Position numbers and translations under genes: made by a program | Origin: a virus | Strand: one strand, 5' to 3' | Length of the DNA stretch: 37,338 nt | IMG/VR virus record: IMGVR_UViG_3300044675_000089 | Coordinates: 1-37,338 of that record | Notes under the pieces: model-generated | The model's database searches: none | The model's input: the letters and a program-made list of their open reading frames with translations, nothing else | What the model was told of the DNA's origin: nothing | In this document: positions 6,152 to 37,332 of the stretch, in pieces | Layout of the letters: each line of letters opens with the position of its first letter | How positions within the stretch are numbered: the stretch's first letter is position 1

Positions 6152-6462
6152 TAGAATGTCCTAACATTGTATTTAAGGGCATCAACTAATTTGTCGATTG
6201 CTTCTCTCATTGCATAGTACATATTCTTTTTTGCTCTATCATCTTTTTTAACGTGTGAATACCAAGCAGCCAGCATAGCAAACTTGGCAGCATAAGCCTG
6301 TAGTTGTGTGATTAGCAGTGTAGCCTTTGCTGGTGGCAGATCTGGATTAGATATTAACTTTGTAATGACAACTAAAGCCTTTGTTAACTCTTCGTCATGC
6401 ATATACTCTGATATTTCGTTAAACTCTGTTACTTTATTTAATAACTCTACTGTAGTTTCCAT
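6151..6462 (-). CDS. Small helical protein of unknown function in the recombination block
   Basis: The predicted protein has 103 residues from the ATG at 6462, which overlaps the previous stop as TGATG. An in-frame GTG one codon earlier is less likely. The sequence is predicted all-helical, with LPPAKATLLITQLQAYAAKF in the middle and MREAIDKLVDALKY near the end. I recognise the type as common beside Cas4-like nucleases and RecA in phages of this sort but know no activity. Tight coupling on both sides (1-base overlaps with the resolvase and the nuclease) suggests a partner or structural role with one of them. Confidence 0.75.
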   Translation of the reverse strand: METTVELLNKVTEFNEISEYMHDEELTKALVVITKLISNPDLPPAKATLLITQLQAYAAKFAMLAAWYSHVKKDDRAKKNMYYAMREAIDKLVDALKYNVRTF

Positions 6463-6752
6463 CACTTCTTCTCTCTTAGTTGTTCAAATACTTCCCACTC
6501 TATTATAGCAAGTCTTACTTTTTTGCTACCCTCGCCAAGAACAATCATTAATGCTGGATCTTTTGCTCTGTCTACTTTCATTGTGTCTGATACAATCTTA
6601 GCCCAAGAGTCTTGGCTAACAGAATATGACTTAGAATATTCTTTAACATCTATAACAAAATCTTCATTGCTACCGTCTGCCTTTACCATTCCTCTACCAG
6701 AATTTTTATGCTGTTTAGCACCAATTCTTTTCAACTCTCCACGCTCAGACAT
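6462..6752 (-). CDS. Probable PD-(D/E)XK resolvase/endonuclease (Hjc-like)
   Basis: The predicted protein has 96 residues. ATG at 6752 is chosen because it overlaps the stop of the hidden gene upstream (TAATG). An earlier start at 6809 would overlap that gene by 58 bases. Visible elements are an N-terminal Glu (SERGELKRIG), a basic SGRG stretch, an acidic pair (NEDF) and a strand ending in D-V-K-E (FVIDVKEYSKS), which together match the order of archaeal-type Holliday junction resolvases and related nucleases. The C-terminal half contains VRLAIIEWEVFEQL. Activity as a resolvase is inferred from the motif pattern and from the RecA neighbourhood. It could instead be a restriction-like nuclease. 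Confidence 0.62.
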   Translation of the reverse strand: MSERGELKRIGAKQHKNSGRGMVKADGSNEDFVIDVKEYSKSYSVSQDSWAKIVSDTMKVDRAKDPALMIVLGEGSKKVRLAIIEWEVFEQLREKK

Positions 6753-6910
6753 TAATACCCCTTTGAAGGAAAGACAACTTTTGATAAGTGCTTTTCTAAA
6801 CACATCCAAGTCAACTCCCTTTTTTCTTGATATAGCCTTGCTGTTCCAACTATCGCTTTACATTCATGGCATACAAACTTACCAGGGTAAACACTATAAT
6901 TATTGTTCAA
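6752..6910 (-). CDS. Small zinc-finger protein between recA and the resolvase
   Basis: This 52-codon gene starts at TTG 6910, inside the last codons of recA, and ends with a TAA that overlaps the ATG of the next gene (TAATG). Without it there would be a gap of nearly 150 bases in an otherwise packed operon. It encodes FVCHECKAIVGTARLYQ, then TWMCLEKHLSKVVF, so a CxxC unit and a C-x3-H unit form a likely zinc site at C14, C17, C37 and H41. Similar short CHEC/C-x3-H proteins occur in actinobacterial phages as I recall. The TTG start has only a weak ribosome site and is the least certain part. Confidence 0.65.
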   Translation of the reverse strand: MNNNYSVYPGKFVCHECKAIVGTARLYQEKRELTWMCLEKHLSKVVFPSKGY

Positions 6911-11891: not shown

Positions 11892-12845
11892 CTAGTTTAG
11901 CATAGAGTATAGTACATTGTCAAACTTATCTACAAATAACTTTAGATCATCATTAGACAAATCTGAAACATCTTTTATACCCTCTGGAAGTTCTGGTGCT
12001 ATACATCCTGATCCAAAAAACTCAATCATTTTCTTAGACATATTTCTTCCAGCCTCATCGTTATCTCCTAAAACTATAACTTGATTAAAGTATTGTTTTA
12101 GAAGTTTTCTTTGTTCTTTTGAAATAGTAGCACCAAGAGTAGCAACAGCATGAACACCAACTTGTTCTAACCTTATTGCATCAAATGATGACTCTACAAC
12201 AAAAACCTTATCATGCCTTTTGGCTCTTTGCAAATTAAACAACGTCTTACTCTTTTGTAATCCAGGGGTATTCTTAAAAACCTTTCCCTCTACAGATCTA
12301 CCAACAAATCCTAAACATATTCCATTAGGAGAATAAACTGGGATGGTAACCATATCCTGTTTATCTGAATATCCTAGTTTATATTTAATAACACTTTCTT
12401 TAGTTATCTTTCTTGACTTATAATAATCTGCTGCTCTTTCCATACTCAAAGCATTACTGTTTAACTTATCTATCATTTCAGAATCATACTCTTCAAACTC
12501 AATTTTCTTTTCAAGCATTTGTGTAACATTCTCTAAAATATTTTTACTATCAGATTTAGAATCAATTAATCTTGCTGCCTCAAAATATGATCTACCTGAA
12601 GCCTGCATTATAACTTCTACAAGTTCCTTAGTTTCCTGACAAGCGAAACAATAAAACATACCACTAGTCTTATGAACTTCTCCTGCTGGAGTTCTATTGT
12701 TATTATGAAACGGACAAAATATAATAAAGTCTATATCTACTTCTGATACTATGTCTATGCCAGAGGCTAGAAGACTTCTTCTGATTTGAGATTCTGAGTA
12801 GTAGTTGATGTTATAACTTGGTTCTTGTCGATTCCCTTTACGCAT
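11892..12845 (-). CDS. dnaG: DnaG-type primase
   Basis: The predicted protein has 317 residues, shorter than bacterial DnaG because it lacks the C-terminal helicase-binding domain. The N-terminal CHC2 zinc finger uses C44, H47, C66 and C69 (FCPFHNNN, then FYCFACQ). The TOPRIM catalytic core shows E218 (FVVESSFDAIRL) and D261-N-D263 (VLGDNDEAGR). A RNA polymerase-like basic region lies between (about 130-200). It would lay RNA primers for the DnaE polymerase at a fork opened by the neighbouring DnaB. The ATG at 12845 lies 79 bases inside the preceding gene, an unusually long overlap for this genome, with GGAAAG about 10 bases upstream. Confidence 0.93.
   Translation of the reverse strand: MRKGNRQEPSYNINYYSESQIRRSLLASGIDIVSEVDIDFIIFCPFHNNNRTPAGEVHKTSGMFYCFACQETKELVEVIMQASGRSYFEAARLIDSKSDSKNILENVTQMLEKKIEFEEYDSEMIDKLNSNALSMERAADYYKSRKITKESVIKYKLGYSDKQDMVTIPVYSPNGICLGFVGRSVEGKVFKNTPGLQKSKTLFNLQRAKRHDKVFVVESSFDAIRLEQVGVHAVATLGATISKEQRKLLKQYFNQVIVLGDNDEAGRNMSKKMIEFFGSGCIAPELPEGIKDVSDLSNDDLKLFVDKFDNVLYSMLN
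11894..11923 (-). promoter_or_regulatory. Candidate promoter for the ssDNA-binding protein gene
   Basis: On the minus strand a perfect -35 TTGACA (11923-11918) is followed after 18 bases by TAAACT (11899-11894), inside and just past the last codons of the primase gene. A 5-bp hairpin (TGCTC / GAGCA) lies between the predicted start site and the AAGGAG ribosome site. Confidence 0.4.
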
Positions 12846-13081
12846 TTTGCTCTTTTCTTTCCAACATAAACTCCGTAAACTGATAGTTTAAATTCAAATG
12901 TCTTACCATTGTAACTGATTGTAAAGTCTGGGTCAATGTCATATCTTGGAACATAACCTTTTTGTCTCATACCATTGCAGATCATATTGATGTATTGATC
13001 TTTTATTTTAGGAATCTTGGCGTCATCAAAGATCTCACCTTCTAAACCAAATTTAGTGATCTTTCTATGACTGTATGACAT
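12767..13081 (-). CDS. Conserved replication-block protein of unknown function
   Basis: The predicted protein has 104 residues and is basic. The N-terminus TKFGLEGEIFDDAKIPKI and the middle GYVPRYDIDPDFTI plus FEFKLSVYGVYVGKK look conserved in type, from memory of related phage replication modules, but I know of no assigned function. The D-x-D and E-x-K pattern (DPDFTI, FEFKLS) loosely recalls a PD-(D/E)XK core, which is only a suggestion. The ATG has no ribosome site and lies 6 bases after a TGATATAAT motif, so a leaderless mRNA is likely. The last 79 bases overlap the primase gene in another frame. Confidence 0.75.
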   Translation of the reverse strand: MSYSHRKITKFGLEGEIFDDAKIPKIKDQYINMICNGMRQKGYVPRYDIDPDFTISYNGKTFEFKLSVYGVYVGKKRAKCVKGIDKNQVITSTTTQNLKSEEVF

Positions 13082-13087
13082 ACCTAA

Positions 13088-13096
13088 ATTATATCA
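13088..13096 (-). promoter_or_regulatory. Extended -10 promoter TGATATAAT, leaderless type
   Basis: The minus strand reads TGATATAAT, then six bases (TTAGGT), then ATG at 13081. The spacing puts the transcription start at the start codon. It lies in the 22-base gap after the helicase gene and would restart expression of the unknown gene and primase within the replication operon. Confidence 0.55.
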
Positions 13097-15562: not shown

Positions 15563-15571
15563 ATTATATCA
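15563..15571 (-). promoter_or_regulatory. Extended -10 promoter of the replication block
   Basis: TGATATAAT on the minus strand lies in the 39-base gap between the last tail gene and the zinc-ribbon gene. It leaves a leader of about 20 bases that contains AAGGA before the ATG at 15536. It is the natural candidate for the early promoter. No -35 match is seen. Confidence 0.55.
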
Positions 15572-25009: not shown

Positions 25010-25599
25010 TAGACCTCCTCAAGTGAAACATCCACATTAAAGAAATCGTGGGTATTGGTTGATCCTCTTTTTACAACGGTATAGTCAAAGGAAGAAAAAT
25101 ACACTTCTAATATTTCATTATACTTATCCATATTTGCATATGCAGAACTAGTAAATTTATCATATCTATCATATGCTAAGAACATATAAAATGAACCAGG
25201 ATTATCTTCATACCATTTAATTAAATCTACCCCGCCAGCACCACCGTCAGCAGTGTACTCTTCTGACAAAGAAGTTTGCTTACCTGTTGTATCACTAAAT
25301 ATAGGATCGTTACTAAATGCTCTTGAAGGAAGCATATCCCAAGACCAAGACGCCGTTACCTTATCAGCAACATGATATGAACGCATATTGCCATTAACCA
25401 TTCTCTTTCTATTTTCAATTCTTTGTTTATTAAAACCAATTTCTCCTCTACCATGATCTGATAGAACAATAAAATCTTCACCTTCAACGCCATCTGGAAC
25501 TAAAATTCCATTACTTAACACGCCAGAGTTATTTGACCAAATTACACCTTGAGGTCTACCAAATCTTTTTCTTCCTAATAAATATCCACTAGTGGCCAT
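25009..25599 (-). CDS. Distal tail-like protein
   Basis: The predicted protein has 196 residues. It follows the tape measure gene, the normal place of the distal tail (Dit) protein that caps the tube and anchors the tip. Features are GRGEIGFNKQRIENRKRMVN, an SWSWDMLPS strand and the C-terminal EILEVYFSSFDYTVVKRG, followed by a final strand ending in VSLEEV. I recognise the type from related phages, but the Dit label rests mainly on position and length. It has 1-base overlaps with both neighbours. Confidence 0.75.
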   Translation of the reverse strand: MATSGYLLGRKRFGRPQGVIWSNNSGVLSNGILVPDGVEGEDFIVLSDHGRGEIGFNKQRIENRKRMVNGNMRSYHVADKVTASWSWDMLPSRAFSNDPIFSDTTGKQTSLSEEYTADGGAGGVDLIKWYEDNPGSFYMFLAYDRYDKFTSSAYANMDKYNEILEVYFSSFDYTVVKRGSTNTHDFFNVDVSLEEV

Positions 25600-28500
25600 T
25601 AGTATCTACTACCTCTTATTCCTCTGTCGTTCATACCCTTAATCTTTCTAATTACAACATTTGCAACTTCATCTGCTGAAGAGTTTGTTCCTGCAACATT
25701 TACATTAACGCTATAACTATTATTATACAGTGTTGTGCTTCCTTCCATAACTGTATTTGTAATTGGTGCCATGATTGTGTTTGCACCTATGCCACCTTTC
25801 ATTCCTGGAAAAACGTCCCCATTCATTGCTTGTAGTAATCCTAAGTTTTCTTTTGCAACAGATTTACGAACAACAAATTCTCCTGGTGTTAATAATGCTG
25901 GAACCCTATCTGTATTTCCTAATCCTGGAACAAGGTTTCCAATTGCCATCCTTACTGGTGCTGGTTCAGTAGATCCTTTATAATTTACATTTCCACCCAT
26001 TGCCATTCTTTTTACGTTTCCACCAAAAGCGTAAGGTCTTCTTGCTGATCTTATTGATGCTAAAGCACTATCTACTGCATTTTGTATTTGAACTTTTCCA
26101 ATTCTAATTGCGTCTGCTGACTGAGATAAACTTGTAAGTATGTCTCTGCCTGTAGAAACCATACCACCCAATCCACTTTTCTTTGAATCTCCAGCCCATG
26201 CTGCACTTAAGTTTGTTAAGAATCCTAATGAATTCTTTCCTTCTACGCTTGCTTCTCCATAAAATCTTGATAAATCTCCTGCTTTCTTTTTTGCTTTTTC
26301 TGCTTCTAGTGCAAACTCTGTTGCTGTTAATGTAGCAATTTGTTGAGATTTTAAAATAGAATCAGAAAGGGCTTGAACATTTATTCCTAATGATTGACTC
26401 ATTGCAGCAACAGACTCAGGACTATTTGGATCTAAACCTATTGACTGACCAAGATATCCAAGTTGTGCACCCATTGCTTGACGTGCTGACTGATTTACAG
26501 TTGTTTGCATCTGAGTAGCAATCTGACTCATCTGTGTTAACACTTGAAGTTTACGTTGTTTTTCTTTCTCAGCAGTAATAGTCTTTTCAATATTAACAAT
26601 TTTTTCTTGTTCTGCTCTAACCAATAAAGTAGTTTGATATATTGACTCTTCAAGAGACTTAATATTAGTTTCAATTTGTTCACGAGTATATAGTTGACCA
26701 TTAATTTCTACCGTCAAAGCAGCAAGTTCTGCTTGTTGTTGTTGTTCAAGTGCTGCCCTAGTATCTTCTAATTGTGCTTGAGCCTCTGCGTTAGTAATCT
26801 CTGCTGCTGCACTTGCGGCTGCACCAAAATCACCAGAAGCAATTGCTGAAGCCAAATCAATTTGTCGTTGTTGTCTTTGTGCCGCTCTATCATTTGCTTG
26901 AGTTACTTTATCAATAGCAGAAATTCTTTCATCATAAATCTTATTAATGTTATCTTCTTTATCAGATAGTTGTTGCAACCCTTTACTATAAAGGTCTATT
27001 TGTTTTTGTTGAGCATTAGAGAGTTCATTATATTGATCTATTTGATCTTGAATTGGATTAATTCTTGTTTGTTCAAGCATATCTATGTATGCACCTATAG
27101 CATTAGTTGCAGAAGTCATAGTATCTTGTAACATTTCTTCATCAGTCTTTAATAGTTCTGCTTGAATAGATGCCTCTCTTAAGGAAGCATTTAATTCAGA
27201 AATTGCTTGTCTTTGTTGTTTAACTGTTCCAGTTAATATTTTTCCTGCTGAAGCAAAATCTAGACTTCCTGCTGCTGCTGGATCTAGCCCTTTCATTCTT
27301 AATTCTATTAACTGTGCTGTTTGTATTGGTACGATTCCTCCACCACCTCCACCAGCCTCTCCATCTTCTCCTATTACTGATGCATACAATGACCCTGGTC
27401 CAAAATATTTTTTAGTTAGTCTAACGGCCTCATCCGCTGATGCTCTTACAACTTCTTCATCAGTAACTGTAGTACTCATTCCTGGATTAAGTGAAGACGA
27501 TGCGGATGCTTTCTTTTGATTTTCTAATCTAGTTCTCATTTTATCTGCATCAATAGTTTCAAGGATTGTTCTATAAATTTGAATTGAATACTTTGTTTGC
27601 TCGTCTGGCAAACTATCAAACCAATCAACGTTCTGTTGAATGCCCACAAAATCTGAATCTGTTTCAGAAAATTTAATTAATGCTTCTTTAGTTATTTTAT
27701 CTGGAAGTTCTTTATTCATTTTAGCAATATCTTCGCTAGCAGATACCATATCATCTATACTTACAGTATCAATAACTGCATCCATATTTACATCTTTATC
27801 ACTTAAATTAGTTGCTGTTTCTAAGAATGAAGTAGCCTGAGCAAATTTTGTTGGATCTAAATCTCTAAATAGATTTATTGTTTCTCCTCTTTCAACTCTA
27901 TCTTGAACTTCTCTAGTAGCAACTAGTATTCTATCTAATCCTTCTACCCCGATACCCTTGGCTTCTGCATATAAAGTAATTTGTTTTTGAATTCCTTCTT
28001 CACTAAGTTTTCCATCTTTTCCAGTCATAACGCTCATCAAAGACATAGCCTGTTCTAGCCCAATATTTCCAGATGAAACTTGTGTATTAATTAAGAAAGT
28101 AACTTCTTTATTTTTAAACCCTTCTGTTTGAGTTGTAAATGCAGATGCTATTCCAGCAAGAGGTGTATCTTTATATTTAATAGATACCGCTTCGCTACTA
28201 CCCTTTAACATCTGATCTTGTATTTGTTTATTAGTAGTAAAAGTTTTCATAACAAAATCTAATGTTTGTTTTTGCTGATCAGTTATCTCTTTTCTACCAG
28301 CAACATAATCATTTTCAAGATTATTTCTATAAAGCAAAAGATCGTTTAATTTATTTTGTAGTTTTGTTTGCTCTTCTGAATTAGTTGTATTTTGAATAGC
28401 ATTTCTTAATACTTTTTCTTGCTCTATAAATTCTTGTCTTTTTGTTTGAACTTGAACTTCATATGTATCTAATGCTTTTCTAGAAGTTTCTAATGCAGAT

Positions 28501-31500
28501 TCATTATAACCAACTTGTTGTCCTGCTATTTTTGCAAATCCTTTATCTTTAAATGTATTTGTACCAAATATAAGATCTCCTAGTTTAGCAACATCAACTG
28601 TTCCAGTTTTCCAAGATTCAAAAAAACTTTTTCCTATTCCAGAAAAATCATAAAATCCACTATCTGTCCATATTTTATTTGAATCAATTTTAGATAATTG
28701 TGTTTGAATTGTATTTGCAAAATCTTGACTTTGTGATTTTGATTCTTCAATAAGTCTAATTCTTACTTCTAATGGATCTTTATATAGGTCATTTCCATTT
28801 ATACCAATAAGTTCTTCTAACTTACCATTAATACTCATAGATATATCTTGGCTACCCAAAGAAGTGCCTATTGCTTGTGCTATGCTTTGTGCTTGTGCTG
28901 GATCTATCAACCCTTCTACAACATAGTCAGCAAGTTTTGCACCAATTATTTTTCCACTTCCTGGACCCATATTATCTTTAGTTAATTGACTTGTTTGATT
29001 TAATAATTGTTTACCTAAATCTGATGTTATAAATGTATCACCAAAATCACTTCGTAATGGATTTATTGGGGAAGTTCTTGACTCTCTTTGTCTAGTTGCA
29101 ACTTCTGAAGCGGAAACGTTTCCAGTCATCTCTCCCATTGCTTTTAAATCATCTGAAGTGTTACTCATAGATGTTGCAAATTCATATCCTTTAACTCTTG
29201 CATTGTCTATTGATTTTTTCATTAGGTATAATGCTGTTGGCAATCCAACTGCTGCAGTTGCTGCTAAGACTAAAGGATTTGCAAGCATTGGTGCGGCCAT
29301 TGCTAAACTTCCAATTGTTCCTGCAGCCATAGACACATTATTTGCTAACTGTTGAGTTCTTGGATCTTTAGAAGTCATTCCTACTGCCATCGCAGCACCA
29401 CTTATTGCAAATCCACCCATACCAATTCCACTTGCAGCCCTACCAAGTCTTTGACTCTTTTGAATTTTATTTGATTGCTTTGTTGCATCATCTAAACTTT
29501 CTGTATTTTTATCAACTACTAATGTATTTTTTCCCATTGTTGTAATTAATTTTTCAACAATTTTTTTACCAGCACTACTTATTGTGCTAGTTGCAGAACC
29601 CAAAGATTGTTTCATTGAAGATCTAGCAACAGTTGATTGTGATGGAATAGTATTAATGTTTTGAGAAGATCTTTTATCTGTAACTTTAAAATCATACCCT
29701 GGTCCACTTGGCTCTGCTCTGTAAGCCATGCCACCTTTATTCATAGCCTGTAATTGTGGTCCAAATTTTTGTGCAGATTTTGAATTAACAACAAACTCTC
29801 CAGGAGTTAACATTGCTGGAGTTACACCTTGTTCTCCATATGAAGGAGTACCTGATTGACGATTTTGTACTGCTTGAGCAGCAGTTCCTGCAACAGCAGT
29901 ACCAAGAGCAGCAAGTGCTCCAAACTTTGCCGAAGGTCTTTGTGAAAAACTTTTTGCCCTTGCACCAACACTAGGTTTAGTAGTTGTTACTCCAGCAGTT
30001 TGTTTTGTCATTGGCATACCCATTACACTAACAAGATTTCCTGCATTATCATATTTAGGATCTAAAAATTTAGGAACAGTTAAACCAAAACCTCCTTGTG
30101 CTCTTACTAAGTTTGGATCATTTAACATACGAAGTAATTGAACAATAGGCATTTTTCTATATTCTTTATGAGGCGAGCCTTTTTTTACTTTTGATCTCAT
30201 ACCTTTATCGCCCAAAATACCTTTTGCCCATAGTTCATCAGCATTAGAATACAATCTACTTGTTAATTGATCAGAATTTTTAGAACCAGAAGAGGCATTC
30301 TTAAATGATTTTTGCATTTCATTTAATACATTTTTACCTTGTGGTGAATTAGGATCTAACCCTTCTGCAGCCAAAGCATTAAGTGCATATCGTCTTCCCA
30401 TTTCACCTTGCCAAGCACCATTAGTTGGAAATTGTTTTAATTCTGCTTGCAAAACTTTTAAGGCTACTTTTTCATTTATAGTTAAATCAGGTTTAGTTTT
30501 GATTAAATCTGCAATGTCTTGTGCTTCTTTTCTAAACAATGGATAGCCTTCTACATTTGCTCCACCCATAAGTGGTCTAATATCTGCTGCACGATTTTGT
30601 GTTAATTGATTAAAAGAATGATTTCCAAACATTGTATATCCAGAATATCTATAAGCACCATTATCTTTTTTAGTACCCTGCCTTAAGTGTAATCCAGAAG
30701 TTTGAAGATGTCCAACTAAGGATACAGAATCAGATTGAGGTAGTGAGCCTCCACCTCTGTAAGCCATCTTTCCAAATCCAGGAGTACCAGAAGACCTATA
30801 GGTTTGACCACCTTTATTCATTGCTTCAAGAGTTTGTGAATTAGCCTGTGCTGCTTTTTTAGTTACAACAAATTCTCCAGGCATCAATGTTGTAGGAACT
30901 GTATCTTTATTTCCTGATCCTGGAACCCAACCACCTTTAGCCATAGGTTTTCCAAATTTAGGATTTTTTATTTTACTTGCGGCTCCTGCTGCAAAAAATT
31001 GTGGATTAGTTTGTGCAAATGAAGATGCTGCTTGATTTGCTTGCTTATAAACACTAGTCAACCTCATTAAAGCACCTGCCTCTAATGCAAATTGATCAGT
31101 TAACATTTCGTGAGCATTATGTAAATTATTTGCTACAGACAATGCTTCTAATTGTTCAGAACTTAAATACTGTGTTGATAAACCTAATTCACCACCACCT
31201 ACTGTTAATGATTGATATCCTTTACGAAGTAAATTAATAAACTTACCAATATTAGCAATACCGTTAGCAATCAAACCAATAGACATCAAAAGTACTGGCC
31301 CAATACCACCAATTGCTGCTATAACTGCAACTATTGCTTTTTTAGTACCGTCTGAAAAATTGTTAAACTTATTTAAGGCTTTAGTTGCAAATTCTATAAT
31401 AGGTGTTAATGCTTCTGCAAATGCTTGACCAACAGGAACCAAAGATGCTTTTAATTTTTCTATAGCAGCCTGAAACTTTACTGCTGCAGATTCTGCTGTA

Positions 31501-32963
31501 ACACCTAATTCTCGTTCTGCCATAATTCCTAATTCTTCCGTTGAGGCTGCAGCCAAAGATAAAACTCTAGATGCTTGAGTTCCACTTTTATTTACGTTTT
31601 CAAAAAGAGTAGATAATCTTGCAAATTGATACTTACCAAAAATTGTTTCAATTAATCTTGATTTTGACAACTCATCAAGTGGCTCTAGTGCTGTAGCAAA
31701 AGTCATAACTGTTGCTTTTAGATCTCCTGCATTTTGTTCAACTATTCCATTTAAATTAATTCCTAATGCTTTAGCCTGTTCATTTGCTGCTTTTGATGGA
31801 TTAATTAAAGATGCAAGACCAGATTTTAAAGCGTTTGCTGCTTCTGATGCTTTTACTCCACCTTCTTGCATTGCGGCCATAAAAAATGCTAAGTCTTTAA
31901 TATCTCCACCAAGTGATTGAATTACAGGAGCAACCTTTGGAATAGCCTGAGTAATATCATCAAGTGCTACTACTGTTTGGTTTTCAACTGCGTTTAAAAA
32001 GTTAATTGTCTTGTCTAGTTCTTTTCCAGTTGCACCAAATGCGTTTTGAATTGCAATTGTTGCCTCTAATGCTTGATCTTGTGCTACCCCACCAAGTACT
32101 GAAAGTTTGGTTGCTTGAGCAACAACGCTTTCTAACTGTGCTCCAGAGTTACCTGCTGCTGCTGCATCTGCAGCCATTTTAATAGTATCTGTAATAGCAA
32201 CTCCATATTTTGTGTATTCGTTTGCTAGTTTTTTAATACTTTCTAAAGCAGCATCTGTTTCTACTGTAGATGTAAAGATATCTCCGTATACTTTTTTAAA
32301 CCTAATAGCCTGCATTTCCATGTCTCTAAAAGTTCTAATGGCTGTAGAACCAAGAATAGTAAGAGGAATGGTAAAACCAACCATCAACTGACGTCCAGCC
32401 CATTGGGTATTCTTACCAAAGTTTAAAAGTTTTGTTGTTCCAGCGTCTAAAAGTTTATTAAAAATTTGTTGTTTTTGAATAGCAAGTTGCATTTGGGTAA
32501 TAGGTTTTGAATAATCAAGAGAGTTAGGAACAATTTTAACTGCTCTCATAGCACCATCAGCGGCACGACCTAATTCAATATGTCTAGTTTGTAATAATTT
32601 TACTCTTTCTTCTGCTACCTTAGTAATAGTTCCAAATTCTTTACCAAAGAGTTTTCCAAATGATTTTGTGGAAGCCATAGAATATCTAAAGTATTCTCTA
32701 GCAGATAGTTTATTTTTTTCAAGAGCGTTAGTAAATCTTTCAGTTTCTGTATGTACCTTGCCCATTGAGGCAGTAAATTTACCTGTAGCATTTATGTTAT
32801 GAATTAAACTAGTAGAAAATTCTTTTTGAATCCTAGATGCTTCAGAGGATCCTTGAATAATGCTTTTGTTAAAAAATTGTATTTGTTTTTCTAAGGCTTT
32901 TAATTCTGCAAGGGCTTGAGCAGCATCGAGATTGACTCTAATATTGGCCTGTGCATCAACCAC
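25599..32963 (-). CDS. Tape measure protein
   Basis: The predicted protein has 2454 residues. It sets tail length and is ejected before the DNA. By the usual 0.15 nm per residue the tail would be up to about 370 nm. The N-terminal part is coiled-coil, and residues about 210-470 match the TP901-type tape measure domain (AIPKVAPVIQSLGGDIKDLA). Hydrophobic segments lie near 540-575 and 1200-1245. Three copies of a PGEFVV module (residues 695, 1054 and 2360) are present, with a non-repetitive insert between the first two. A coiled-coil rich in Gln lies around 1970-2130. GTG at 32963 overlaps the chaperone stop (TAGTG) and has GAGGTGA 8 bases upstream. Confidence 0.95.
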   Translation of the reverse strand: MVDAQANIRVNLDAAQALAELKALEKQIQFFNKSIIQGSSEASRIQKEFSTSLIHNINATGKFTASMGKVHTETERFTNALEKNKLSAREYFRYSMASTKSFGKLFGKEFGTITKVAEERVKLLQTRHIELGRAADGAMRAVKIVPNSLDYSKPITQMQLAIQKQQIFNKLLDAGTTKLLNFGKNTQWAGRQLMVGFTIPLTILGSTAIRTFRDMEMQAIRFKKVYGDIFTSTVETDAALESIKKLANEYTKYGVAITDTIKMAADAAAAGNSGAQLESVVAQATKLSVLGGVAQDQALEATIAIQNAFGATGKELDKTINFLNAVENQTVVALDDITQAIPKVAPVIQSLGGDIKDLAFFMAAMQEGGVKASEAANALKSGLASLINPSKAANEQAKALGINLNGIVEQNAGDLKATVMTFATALEPLDELSKSRLIETIFGKYQFARLSTLFENVNKSGTQASRVLSLAAASTEELGIMAERELGVTAESAAVKFQAAIEKLKASLVPVGQAFAEALTPIIEFATKALNKFNNFSDGTKKAIVAVIAAIGGIGPVLLMSIGLIANGIANIGKFINLLRKGYQSLTVGGGELGLSTQYLSSEQLEALSVANNLHNAHEMLTDQFALEAGALMRLTSVYKQANQAASSFAQTNPQFFAAGAASKIKNPKFGKPMAKGGWVPGSGNKDTVPTTLMPGEFVVTKKAAQANSQTLEAMNKGGQTYRSSGTPGFGKMAYRGGGSLPQSDSVSLVGHLQTSGLHLRQGTKKDNGAYRYSGYTMFGNHSFNQLTQNRAADIRPLMGGANVEGYPLFRKEAQDIADLIKTKPDLTINEKVALKVLQAELKQFPTNGAWQGEMGRRYALNALAAEGLDPNSPQGKNVLNEMQKSFKNASSGSKNSDQLTSRLYSNADELWAKGILGDKGMRSKVKKGSPHKEYRKMPIVQLLRMLNDPNLVRAQGGFGLTVPKFLDPKYDNAGNLVSVMGMPMTKQTAGVTTTKPSVGARAKSFSQRPSAKFGALAALGTAVAGTAAQAVQNRQSGTPSYGEQGVTPAMLTPGEFVVNSKSAQKFGPQLQAMNKGGMAYRAEPSGPGYDFKVTDKRSSQNINTIPSQSTVARSSMKQSLGSATSTISSAGKKIVEKLITTMGKNTLVVDKNTESLDDATKQSNKIQKSQRLGRAASGIGMGGFAISGAAMAVGMTSKDPRTQQLANNVSMAAGTIGSLAMAAPMLANPLVLAATAAVGLPTALYLMKKSIDNARVKGYEFATSMSNTSDDLKAMGEMTGNVSASEVATRQRESRTSPINPLRSDFGDTFITSDLGKQLLNQTSQLTKDNMGPGSGKIIGAKLADYVVEGLIDPAQAQSIAQAIGTSLGSQDISMSINGKLEELIGINGNDLYKDPLEVRIRLIEESKSQSQDFANTIQTQLSKIDSNKIWTDSGFYDFSGIGKSFFESWKTGTVDVAKLGDLIFGTNTFKDKGFAKIAGQQVGYNESALETSRKALDTYEVQVQTKRQEFIEQEKVLRNAIQNTTNSEEQTKLQNKLNDLLLYRNNLENDYVAGRKEITDQQKQTLDFVMKTFTTNKQIQDQMLKGSSEAVSIKYKDTPLAGIASAFTTQTEGFKNKEVTFLINTQVSSGNIGLEQAMSLMSVMTGKDGKLSEEGIQKQITLYAEAKGIGVEGLDRILVATREVQDRVERGETINLFRDLDPTKFAQATSFLETATNLSDKDVNMDAVIDTVSIDDMVSASEDIAKMNKELPDKITKEALIKFSETDSDFVGIQQNVDWFDSLPDEQTKYSIQIYRTILETIDADKMRTRLENQKKASASSSLNPGMSTTVTDEEVVRASADEAVRLTKKYFGPGSLYASVIGEDGEAGGGGGGIVPIQTAQLIELRMKGLDPAAAGSLDFASAGKILTGTVKQQRQAISELNASLREASIQAELLKTDEEMLQDTMTSATNAIGAYIDMLEQTRINPIQDQIDQYNELSNAQQKQIDLYSKGLQQLSDKEDNINKIYDERISAIDKVTQANDRAAQRQQRQIDLASAIASGDFGAAASAAAEITNAEAQAQLEDTRAALEQQQQAELAALTVEINGQLYTREQIETNIKSLEESIYQTTLLVRAEQEKIVNIEKTITAEKEKQRKLQVLTQMSQIATQMQTTVNQSARQAMGAQLGYLGQSIGLDPNSPESVAAMSQSLGINVQALSDSILKSQQIATLTATEFALEAEKAKKKAGDLSRFYGEASVEGKNSLGFLTNLSAAWAGDSKKSGLGGMVSTGRDILTSLSQSADAIRIGKVQIQNAVDSALASIRSARRPYAFGGNVKRMAMGGNVNYKGSTEPAPVRMAIGNLVPGLGNTDRVPALLTPGEFVVRKSVAKENLGLLQAMNGDVFPGMKGGIGANTIMAPITNTVMEGSTTLYNNSYSVNVNVAGTNSSADEVANVVIRKIKGMNDRGIRGSRY

Positions 32964-33636
32964 TATTGAATCACCTCGTAATCCAAACCATTACCTATAC
33001 CAAAACCAGCACGCTTAGCGGCTTGTCCTTGTAAGGCAACAATATCTCTTGGATTAGTTGTTTGACCTTTACTATATACTTTAGCCTTGAGACGTTCCCA
33101 TTCATCACCAGAGACTTTATTCTTATCGATGTCAACACCTTGTAGTGCTGCTGAAAACTTCCTGTTAATATGGTCTTGTTCTCTCTTTGCTTCGAGAATG
33201 GCCACTAGTTCAGGCATCGATAATCTGTCCTCCAATTCCTGGTAATCTTTCCAATTACCAAGAAGAAATACCTCAGATTCTATAGCAACGAGGTCTAGTT
33301 CTGACCACTTAGAGCCGCCGTTGCTGCTAGTAAATTTGGGTCGTTAAGTTTAACCCCCGAGGCAATTTCAATAATTTTATAAACTGTTGGAAGATCTACT
33401 AAATCTTCAAGTTTTTTCTTATCTGCTAATTCAGGATTGTACTGTTGCATTGCAATTGTGATGCAATCCATTAACAAATCCATTGACTTATCATTATCAG
33501 ATGCTACTTCTACATTATCTAAGCCTTGAAATTTTTTCATGAAATCTCTTAATAGAGAAATTCTTAAAGGTCTTAGGGTTAATTTTGTACCGTCAATTAG
33601 TTCAATTTCTACGACTTCATAGACACTTGTTGCCAT
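32963..33636 (-). CDS. Tail assembly chaperone G-T fusion made by -1 frameshift
   Basis: Reading the 33295-33636 frame to codon 102 and slipping back one base gives a 224-residue fusion. The T part (WSELDLVAIESEVFLLGNWK, then DRLSMPELVAILEAK and FSAALQGVDIDKNK) is the typical actinophage T domain, and it has no plausible start of its own. Its frame is open from 33337 to 32963, while stop codons close it just upstream of the slip site. So the T domain can only be made by frameshifting, as in lambda G/GT. The fusion should load the tape measure protein for tube assembly. It lies directly before the tape measure gene. Confidence 0.85.
33295..33636 (-). CDS. Tail assembly chaperone G
   Basis: The predicted protein has 113 residues. 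An N-terminal beta part (VYEVVEIELIDGTKLTLRPL) is followed by helices (LLRDFMKKFQGLD, DLPTVYKIIEIASGV). Size and position between the major tail and tape measure genes match the G component of tail chaperones. The zero-frame product ends in LLAATAALSGQN. The last 12 codons are replaced by the T domain when the ribosome slips. ATG at 33636 has AGGAGG 4 bases upstream and an extended -10 promoter just before. Confidence 0.85.
   Translation of the reverse strand: MATSVYEVVEIELIDGTKLTLRPLRISLLRDFMKKFQGLDNVEVASDNDKSMDLLMDCITIAMQQYNPELADKKKLEDLVDLPTVYKIIEIASGVKLNDPNLLAATAALSGQN
33331..33340 (-). other. Tandem -1 ribosomal slippery site
   Basis: The minus strand reads CCCAAATTTA with codons (ga)C CCA AAT TTA. 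It contains two overlapping X XXY YYZ heptamers, C CCA AAT and A AAT TTA, both giving the same -1 frame. The G frame stops 36 bases downstream of the site. The -1 frame has stop codons only a few codons upstream, so the slip window is about 50 bases. Confidence 0.82.
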
Positions 33637-33660
33637 TTATCCTCCTATGGATATATTAAA

Positions 33661-33669
33661 ATTATAGCA
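33661..33669 (-). promoter_or_regulatory. Extended -10 promoter TGCTATAAT for chaperone/tape measure genes
   Basis: TGCTATAAT on the minus strand matches TGnTATAAT. It lies directly after the terminator hairpin and leaves a leader of about 18 bases with AGGAGG before the chaperone ATG at 33636. No -35 match is visible. Confidence 0.5.
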
Positions 33670-33670
33670 C

Positions 33671-33696
33671 AAAACCCACCCCCAGAAGGGAGTGGG
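33671..33696 (-). terminator. Intrinsic terminator after the major tail protein gene
   Basis: On the minus strand CCCACTCCC, loop TTCT, then GGGGGTGGG form a 9-bp stem with one T-G wobble, followed directly by TTTT and an AT-rich tail. It is placed 22 bases after the major tail protein stop. It is the only strong intrinsic terminator I found in the window. Confidence 0.85.
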
Positions 33697-33718
33697 CTAA
33701 GTGTATATGAAGTTGTTA

Positions 33719-34396
33719 CTAGCCAACTACACGGTCTACGATTTTACCGTATGAACCATTTGCTGTTGGTAGTAAGCGGAATGAAACTTCAAACATTGAA
33801 GGTTCGTCACGCTTTGCAGAAACTGTTACGTTGTCGATTGACAATGCACGGTGTGCTACATAAACTCTTTCTACTGCTGTTGCTCCTGTTGCTTCTGGAT
33901 CTCCAGAACCTGGACCAACTGCGATAAGTGCACGTTCAACTGGAACTGCACCAAGTTCACCTGAGTTTAGAACTAAAGTGTCTTGTGTTGCTCCATTTGA
34001 AAGTTCTGTATCTTTGCCTGCAATAGATACAAGAAGATTTTCAAGTGTGGCTTCAGCGAATGCTGTAACCATGTTAACTTGCATACCTTGCTTGTAAAGT
34101 TTTGCTACGTCAAGTAGTTGATCTACTTGAACTTCACCAAAGTCTGGTTGGAATTGTAATTCCAAACCATTCATTGTGTAGCCTACGTTTCTGTAGTTTG
34201 CATTTGCTTCAAGTGTATCTGCGTAACGTGTTCCAGATACGAAATTTGGAATTCCTGTTACGGAACCTGAACCAAAGTTGTATACTGCTGCAGATCCTGA
34301 TCCTGAATTTGGTACATATTCAAGAGCACCTGCTGTAGATACGAATACCTGTGCTGCACCTACGATAATTTGATTGCTATTACCTAATGTTGCCAT
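33719..34396 (-). CDS. Major tail protein
   Basis: The predicted protein has 225 residues, neither very basic nor acidic. It is the tube subunit by size, by position before the chaperones, and by sequence style: a start VGAAQVFVSTAGALEYVP, a central LELQFQPDFGEVQVDQLLD and a C-terminal strand FEVSFRLLPTANGSYGKIVD. Codon use is unlike most neighbours, with CGT for Arg and many C-ending codons, and the gene has its own leader with AAGGAAGG and a terminator behind it. All this fits very high expression. ATG at 34396. Confidence 0.85.
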   Translation of the reverse strand: MATLGNSNQIIVGAAQVFVSTAGALEYVPNSGSGSAAVYNFGSGSVTGIPNFVSGTRYADTLEANANYRNVGYTMNGLELQFQPDFGEVQVDQLLDVAKLYKQGMQVNMVTAFAEATLENLLVSIAGKDTELSNGATQDTLVLNSGELGAVPVERALIAVGPGSGDPEATGATAVERVYVAHRALSIDNVTVSAKRDEPSMFEVSFRLLPTANGSYGKIVDRVVG

Positions 34397-37279: not shown

Positions 37280-37332
37280 AATATCCTCCAAGTTTATTAT
37301 ATCATTTATAAAATAGTTGAAGGGAGGACATT
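37280..37332 (-). promoter_or_regulatory. Hairpin that can mask the ribosome site of the 37279 gene
   Basis: On the minus strand AATGTCCTCC (37332-37323) pairs with GGAGGATATT (37289-37280) over ten base pairs, including one G-T wobble, around a 33-base loop. The second arm contains the whole GGAGG site. The hairpin forms only on transcripts that read in from upstream. Confidence 0.6.
37296..37304 (-). promoter_or_regulatory. Extended -10 promoter TGATATAAT inside the hairpin loop
   Basis: TGATATAAT on the minus strand would start transcription near 37289, directly before the GGAGG. A transcript from this site would lack the left arm of the hairpin, so the ribosome site would be free. Confidence 0.5.

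Follow-up and report, generated by a model that had tools for sequence, protein, structure and literature searches.

Background

Programmed frameshifting in tail genes is thought to fix the ratio between the short and the long form of the tail assembly chaperone. The -1 frameshift of these genes is reportedly widespread, as Xu, Hendrix and Duda are said to have found in 2004, and the slippery heptamer of phage lambda is GGGAAAG. In the passages drawn on here, the -1 frameshift that yields G and GT is the standard case for tail assembly chaperones (Atkins et al. 2016, PMC5009743; PMC10885494), and the G:GT ratio of lambda, about 30:1, is described as important for assembly (PMC5009743). Neither lambda product is retained in the virion (PMC5009743). 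Arrangements of other kinds have also been described. According to a passage in PMC10885494, which cites Vladimirov et al. 2022, some T4-like phages carry a separate short chaperone gene and a long fusion gene; and the relevant passage on Microbacterium phages states that in some EA subclusters two chaperone ORFs seem to be separately expressed, with no evident frameshift (PMC7302621).

The locus described here comes from a freshwater phage and lies in a stretch of 37,338 nucleotides (positions 1 to 37,338 of IMG/VR record IMGVR_UViG_3300044675_000089), referred to below as the window. An earlier note, made from the letters of the window alone, had pointed to a G/T chaperone pair with two overlapping slippery heptamers. 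Our analysis suggests, with a probability that we put at about 85%, that this phage makes a chaperone of the lambda G/GT kind by a -1 slip at C_CCA_AAT, that the second heptamer is a synonymous change, and that many relatives use GT and G genes instead.

The G/T locus of the window

The locus and its neighbours are on the minus strand. G, the short tail assembly chaperone recognized as an ORF and by homology, has 113 codons (33298-33636) and ends at the TAG at 33297-33295. In the -1 frame relative to G the last upstream stop is a TAA at 33346-33344, which agrees with the earlier note in that this frame is blocked just upstream of the slip site; from there it is open as far as the TAG at 32965-32963, and this reading frame holds the T domain (32966-33340). 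The string CCCAAATTTA is present once in the window, from 33340 down to 33331, where the zero-frame codons of G read AAC GAC CCA AAT TTA CTA. It contains C_CCA_AAT (33334-33340) and, overlapping it, A_AAT_TTA (33331-33337), both of which are, as had been claimed, in slip phase with the codons of G and lead into the same -1 frame. A slip at C_CCA_AAT would join NDPN to FTSSNGG (101 + 123 = 224 residues), and a slip at A_AAT_TTA would join DPNL to TSSNGG (102 + 122 = 224 residues), so that the two products would differ at residue 102, Phe for the first heptamer and Leu for the second.

The surroundings of the locus are those of a tail region. It sits between a probable major tail gene and the tape measure gene, just before the latter. 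The upstream product (33719-34396) matches phrog_2175, 'protein with Ig domain', and its probable identity follows the Streptomyces relatives, where a gene annotated as major tail protein stands directly before G; the tape measure protein (25599-32963, 2454 residues) matches phrog_10030 (E 1.7e-78) and PF10145 (E 1.1e-25). Between the upstream tail gene and G, a hairpin scan finds a terminator-like hairpin (33673-33698), which is followed by the start signals of G: TGCTATAAT, an extended -10 promoter-like element (33661-33669), and the Shine-Dalgarno sequence AGGAGG (33641-33646). These elements are consistent with a mechanism in which one promoter would yield a leader with a Shine-Dalgarno sequence; most ribosomes would make G and stop, and a minority would slip back one base at C_CCA_AAT and read on into T, giving a GT of 224 residues.

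G and T match phrog_10504 (E 1e-29) and phrog_10474 (E 1.9e-13), both of which are PHROGs without an assigned function, and a Pfam search returned no family for either. G also matches the tail assembly chaperones, so annotated by the depositors, of 127 Streptomyces phage records, with 48.7-51.3% identity among the 20 listed. Four of these were compared in detail (Mildred21, Angela, Coruscant and Lululemon; L158-L161). They share the gene order of the window and have T in the -1 frame, and all four annotate T as a separate, unjoined gene. As these annotations show, GT of the frameshift type would escape gene callers.

The fold of G is not firmly established. In a Foldseek search against the PDB, the predicted model (pLDDT 66.8) had no match at E 0.001 or better. 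HK97 gp13 (2ob9) was reached at E 3.4 and, on re-alignment, ranked second of 50 rows with a Z of 4.8, below the caution level of 8; in BFVD a protein named tail assembly chaperone matched the model at E 1.9e-7. Taken from the sequences, the reading of G and T as a -1 frameshift pair of the tail assembly chaperone is well supported, and we infer from it both the role in tail assembly and the actual slipping.

Conservation of the first heptamer

Relatives were collected in five scans of viral contigs, from which 80 of 103, 76 of 76, 80 of 423, 21 of 21 and 80 of 130 loci were taken, and the loci were sorted by profiles of G and T. The 341 classified loci comprise 176 of the frameshift type, in which a -1 T ORF overlaps the end of G, 158 with a GT+G layout described below, and seven partial loci (L035, L080, L114, L116, L147, L164 and L339) that were left out of the counts; L162, from Rhodococcus, stands outside the script classification. 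The loci are not independent, because different scans can return the same contig. We therefore use counts of distinct sequences where possible, although distinct sequences are still related by descent.

An in-frame heptamer is found where the -1 frame opens in 99 of the 103 distinct frameshift-type G/T overlaps in the pooled relatives (172 of 176 when counted per locus). It always has the form X_XXA_AAY: 71 of the 99 are CCCAAAC, 17 are GGGAAAC and 11 are CCCAAAT. The four distinct overlaps without an X_XXY_YYZ heptamer are those of the four named Streptomyces phages, whose -1 frame opens at CCCGGAA. The first two scans gave 43 distinct overlaps with a heptamer, which are related sequences; 35 of them read GAC CCA AAY and eight read NNG GGA AAC; in the same G ORFs overall, GAC accounts for 39% of aspartate codons and CCA for 76% of proline codons. 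Where CCC and GGG replace each other the amino acids differ, yet the X_XX rule still holds, and downstream of the heptamer the T reading is conserved as well. The first heptamer, which 99 of the 103 distinct overlaps retain, is more than a product of chance, and C_CCA_AAT is probably the selected site.

The kind of heptamer is a point against the frameshift reading. In the part of PMC4066793 drawn on here, the most efficient -1 motifs in E. coli are V_VVA_AAR and H_HHU_UUY. CCCAAAT, CCCAAAC and AAATTTA are not among the top E. coli motifs in that part of the paper, and E. coli may not match the host of this phage.

The second heptamer

The earlier note had given the doubled site most weight, as a feature that may set an unusual G to GT ratio, and had named an alignment of relatives as one test of it. 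Among the relatives one heptamer alone is conserved, the outcome that the note had given as a refutation. The double occurs in four of the 99 distinct heptamer-bearing overlaps, and these come from five contigs (L002, L003, L005, L006 and L038) that are the nearest kin of the window; counted per locus it occurs in 10 of 176, which are the same five contigs, each fetched twice. None of the 61 distinct overlaps added by the later three scans has it. On these 99 distinct overlaps, we reject the doubled heptamer as a conserved device, and a role of it in setting the ratio is not supported.

The codon preferences of the genome can account for the double. The CCCAAATTTA string is by itself not rare, since it turns up one or more times in 14 of 100 shuffled windows. 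AAT makes up 72% of asparagine codons and TTA plus TTG 58% of leucine codons in the window, AAT and TTA being the commonest codons for the two residues, and the probability that an Asn-Leu pair yields the double by window codon use alone is 0.42. The 35 ORFs of the window that were counted contain 85 in-frame heptamers and six overlapping in-frame doubles. The double thus needs no special explanation, given the preference of the window for AAT and TTA and the six doubles within its ORFs. The near relative L004 has C CCA AAC CTA at this point, which leaves the G peptide DPNLL unchanged but gives only one heptamer, and A_AAT_TTA probably arose in the small clade by a synonymous change from AAC CTA to AAT TTA, adding at most some slipping.

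As a side observation, 59 distinct overlaps have leucine directly after the heptamer; its codon is CTN in 55 of them, and TTA (33331-33333 in the window, minus strand) is confined to the four doubled ones. This points the other way from the codon usage, and descent may explain it. In the same G ORFs, which are related sequences, TTA and TTG together account for 516 of 1539 leucine codons.

It is conceivable, at rather long odds, that the double is nevertheless a real device of the clade of the window, in which two successive slips raise or fix the G:GT ratio, for example by offsetting the presence of AAT for AAC. The two heptamers are in phase, the downstream hairpin lies at a usable distance from either of them, and AAT and TTA occur together in all four doubled distinct overlaps, with TTA or TTG after the heptamer in none of the other 95. 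Against such a device, the double is confined to one small clade, seven distinct overlaps with CCCAAAT (the 11 minus the four) lack the second heptamer, and, as noted, its two codons are the commonest of their kind in the window. From the sequences compared, the double seems to be a local accident in which two heptamers happen to overlap. In the openly licensed literature, as far as its accessible text goes, we found no report of tandem slippery heptamers in tail genes.

The downstream hairpin

The AGCAAC/GTTGCT stem that had been noticed, as a weak one, downstream of the slip site forms the base of a longer hairpin (33325-33284, recognized by folding), which is separated from the first heptamer by 8 nt and from the second by 5 nt. 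The folding energy is -16.7 kcal/mol for 53 nt (z -2.0), and seven of 200 shuffles fold equally well; with the length of the folded segment the z value changes from -2.0 for 53 nt to -0.94 for 83 nt and -2.77 for 123 nt. At the same place in relatives the mean z is -1.2, and 18 of 47 distinct sequences fall below -1.65, with differing shapes. No consensus structure emerges across 28 relatives, for which RNAalifold gives -0.09 kcal/mol with six pairs, and accordingly a conserved consensus hairpin is not claimed. In the window itself, the hairpin may stimulate slipping.

Two gene layouts in the same slot

In the GT+G layout, a fused in-frame GT ORF is directly followed by a stand-alone G ORF, and GT comes first in all 158 loci. 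Examples are L034:2163-3327 and L113:2593-3738, together with 156 further loci. Counted by contig, the first two scans returned 74 with GT+G, 57 of the frameshift type and five partial. Synteny was followed in the loci of these two scans and in the four Streptomyces loci: a tail gene upstream and a tape measure gene downstream were found in 74 of the 80 frameshift-type and 72 of the 75 GT+G loci tested, and since the neighbouring genes are the same, both layouts can be said to occupy one slot. All 80 frameshift-type loci of these scans have one G and one T and all 75 GT+G loci have two G and one T, ORF contents by which the classes are themselves defined. None of the named phages among the 30 of 130 records listed has the GT+G layout. 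One scan of genome contigs with G, aimed at the host, found no relative.

The GT+G group bears directly on which product matters. A free T ORF was never seen in this group, which supports the fusion as the form that functions in the window too; the group offers strong comparative support for fused GT, and not free T, as the working product. The earlier interpretation of G and T as a -1 frameshift chaperone pair whose fusion is meaningful holds up well in this light, with the adjacent tape measure gene, the homology to Streptomyces phages and the occurrence of T only in fusion with G in the GT+G relatives all in its favor.

One part of that interpretation was not strictly right, namely that T has no start of its own. 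Internal candidates are a TTG at 33235 and an ATG at 33217-33215, the latter with a GGAGG (33233-33229) 11 nt before it. T could in principle be made separately from one of these starts, frameshifting being incidental, and 35 of 41 frameshift-type T sequences retain the methionine of this in-frame ATG (33215-33233 including GGAGG, minus strand), which stands before P-E/D. The same methionine persists in 29 of the 45 T domains with an in-frame fusion to G, so its conservation is explained by the protein. Moreover, past the heptamer the -1 frame is both open and conserved, the heptamer itself is kept, and T is seen solely as a fusion in the GT+G group. Separate production of T from an internal start is accordingly very unlikely, and we retain the fusion by a -1 slip.

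Start signals and promoters

The two genes of the GT+G layout differ sharply in their start signals. Stand-alone G has a TGNTATAAT-type promoter and a leader: in all 98 distinct starts the extended -10 TGNTANNNT is at least 15 nt away from the ATG, its hexamer is TATAAT in 97 of them, and a Shine-Dalgarno sequence is present in 97. Before GT, a Shine-Dalgarno sequence is found in none of 97 distinct starts; in 85 of these, 5-7 nt separate the end of an extended -10 from the ATG, a plain TANNNT being so placed in 90. Twelve of the 97 GT starts thus miss the 5-7 nt extended -10 rule, seven of them without even a plain TANNNT. The GT hexamer is TATACT in 54 and TATAAT in 20 of the 97. Starts with less than 40 nt of upstream sequence were left out. 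In the set of the first two scans, so were five loci (L072 and L076-L079) in which the start of stand-alone G was not found within the allowed distance. When the set is thinned to upstream regions less than 70% identical, the GT rule holds in 30 of 35 starts and G has a Shine-Dalgarno sequence in 30 of 31. Among the first 47 GT starts, 35 have the element, as compared with a mean of 0.37 and a largest value of 2 in shuffles.

Transcription would begin about 6 nt after a -10 element. Because the ATG of GT is placed about where transcription would begin, GT is predicted to be translated from a leaderless mRNA in the GT+G relatives, as far as spacing can indicate.

The same kind of extended -10 precedes frameshift-type G in 43 of 44 distinct starts in the first two scans and in 57 of 108 in the pooled set. 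In the loci of the first two scans, which include overlapping ones, extended -10 elements number 218 on the coding strand and eight on the opposite strand in 901,600 bases. Terminator-like hairpins were found before GT in 73 of 77 distinct sequences, before frameshift-type G in 82 of 91 and in the GT-G gap in none of 81, counts that have no shuffle control and in which the gaps are shorter.

In the window, the number of TGNTATAAT elements is not above chance (six against 4.1 expected), but every one of the six lies on the minus strand, the strand that encodes the genes listed there. Two of them (1379-1387 and 13088-13096, minus strand) end 6 nt before the ATG of the ORFs at 950-1372 and 12767-13081, which are probable leaderless genes; with two extended -10 elements so placed, leaderless genes are plausible in the genome of the window. 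Besides the one before G, the other elements lie at 6502-6510, 15563-15571 and 37296-37304 (minus strand), the first of these three inside the ORF at 6462-6809. Between 25000 and 37338 of the window, neither a promoter scan (40 against 47.8 in shuffles) nor a terminator scan (five against 5.6) exceeded the shuffles.

These signals suggest how the relatives could arrive at a surplus of G. GT would come from a leaderless and usually weaker promoter, mostly TATACT, and G from a strong, leadered TATAAT promoter with a strong Shine-Dalgarno sequence and, in addition, from read-through from GT; with a strong leadered promoter and read-through together, G would exceed GT. In the part of PMC7148126 drawn on here, reporters in M. 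smegmatis show lower predicted transcript production for leaderless mRNAs and a translation efficiency similar to that of one leadered control. That leaderless and leadered mRNAs were not clearly set apart by translation efficiency in these mycobacterial reporters (PMC7148126) counts against the explanation. In view of the M. smegmatis data, a lower output of GT would have at least as much to do with transcription as with translation. We propose that start signals control the G:GT ratio in these relatives. It seems somewhat more likely than not that one phage family has, in the same gene slot, two solutions to the stoichiometry of its chaperone: a -1 slip, or a leaderless GT with a leadered G that sets G:GT by initiation.

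History of the two layouts

In the G tree, the stand-alone G sequences group in a single clade (100/98), placed beside or among the frameshift rows, and the G domain of GT forms one long-branched clade (100/99). A constraint that holds stand-alone G and the G domain of GT together is not rejected (p-AU 0.357), nor is the opposite constraint, which holds the frameshift rows together (p-AU 0.399). The T tree is poorly resolved; the fused T domains are not one group in it, and the bootstrap is not settled. Because the outer rows (Streptomyces, L081 and L157) are of the frameshift type, that type is likely to be ancestral, and only likely, since neither of the two opposite constraints is rejected and the T tree is poorly resolved. 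The simplest path from a frameshift ancestor would be a duplication of the G-T unit, in which one copy was fused by an indel and the other lost T.

Sequence divergence bears on the purpose of the two genes. The G domain of GT is 41.7% identical (median of 73) to the G of the same genome, which is itself 64.7% identical to the G of the window. This divergence, together with the long branch of the GT clade, would fit GT+G relatives that have no ratio device at all, GT and G having diverged to separate tasks and their start signals reflecting gene order only. The contrast between the starts (Shine-Dalgarno sequence in 0 of 97 for GT, 97 of 98 for G) is sharper than gene order alone would give, however, and T was kept on one copy only. 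We regard a division into separate tasks as rather unlikely and prefer the reading in which the two start signals set the G:GT ratio.

Comparison with known systems

Compared with gpG/gpGT of lambda, the locus of the window is alike in its place before the tape measure gene, the short G, the T in the -1 frame and an X_XXY_YYZ heptamer near the end of G. It differs in that its heptamer is of the form X_XXA_AAY and in that the clade of the window has an overlapping second heptamer. The Streptomyces phages (Stanwilliamsviridae; Mildred21, Angela, Coruscant and Lululemon) share with the window a G that is about 49-51% identical, a T in the -1 frame and the gene order; unlike the window, they have no X_XXY_YYZ heptamer, with CCCGGAA instead, and two unjoined genes are annotated.

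The GT+G relatives seem to reach the same pair of proteins through gene duplication and two types of start signal, with no need of recoding, and can be viewed as a natural experiment on the purpose of the frameshift. Neither a leaderless GT paired with a leadered G nor both layouts in one family turned up in the accessible text of the openly licensed literature. The Microbacterium EA phages, as described in the passage available, resemble the GT+G relatives in having no evident frameshift and differ from them in that two ORFs, and not a G with a GT fusion, are described. The T4-like phages, compared by description only, are like the GT+G relatives in that both forms come from two genes without a frameshift; they are unlike them in family and control elements, and the description drawn on here does not mention a leaderless GT. 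Split genes for the short and the long form are thus already known from T4-like phages, and the novelty lies in the family in which they occur, not in the slip site.
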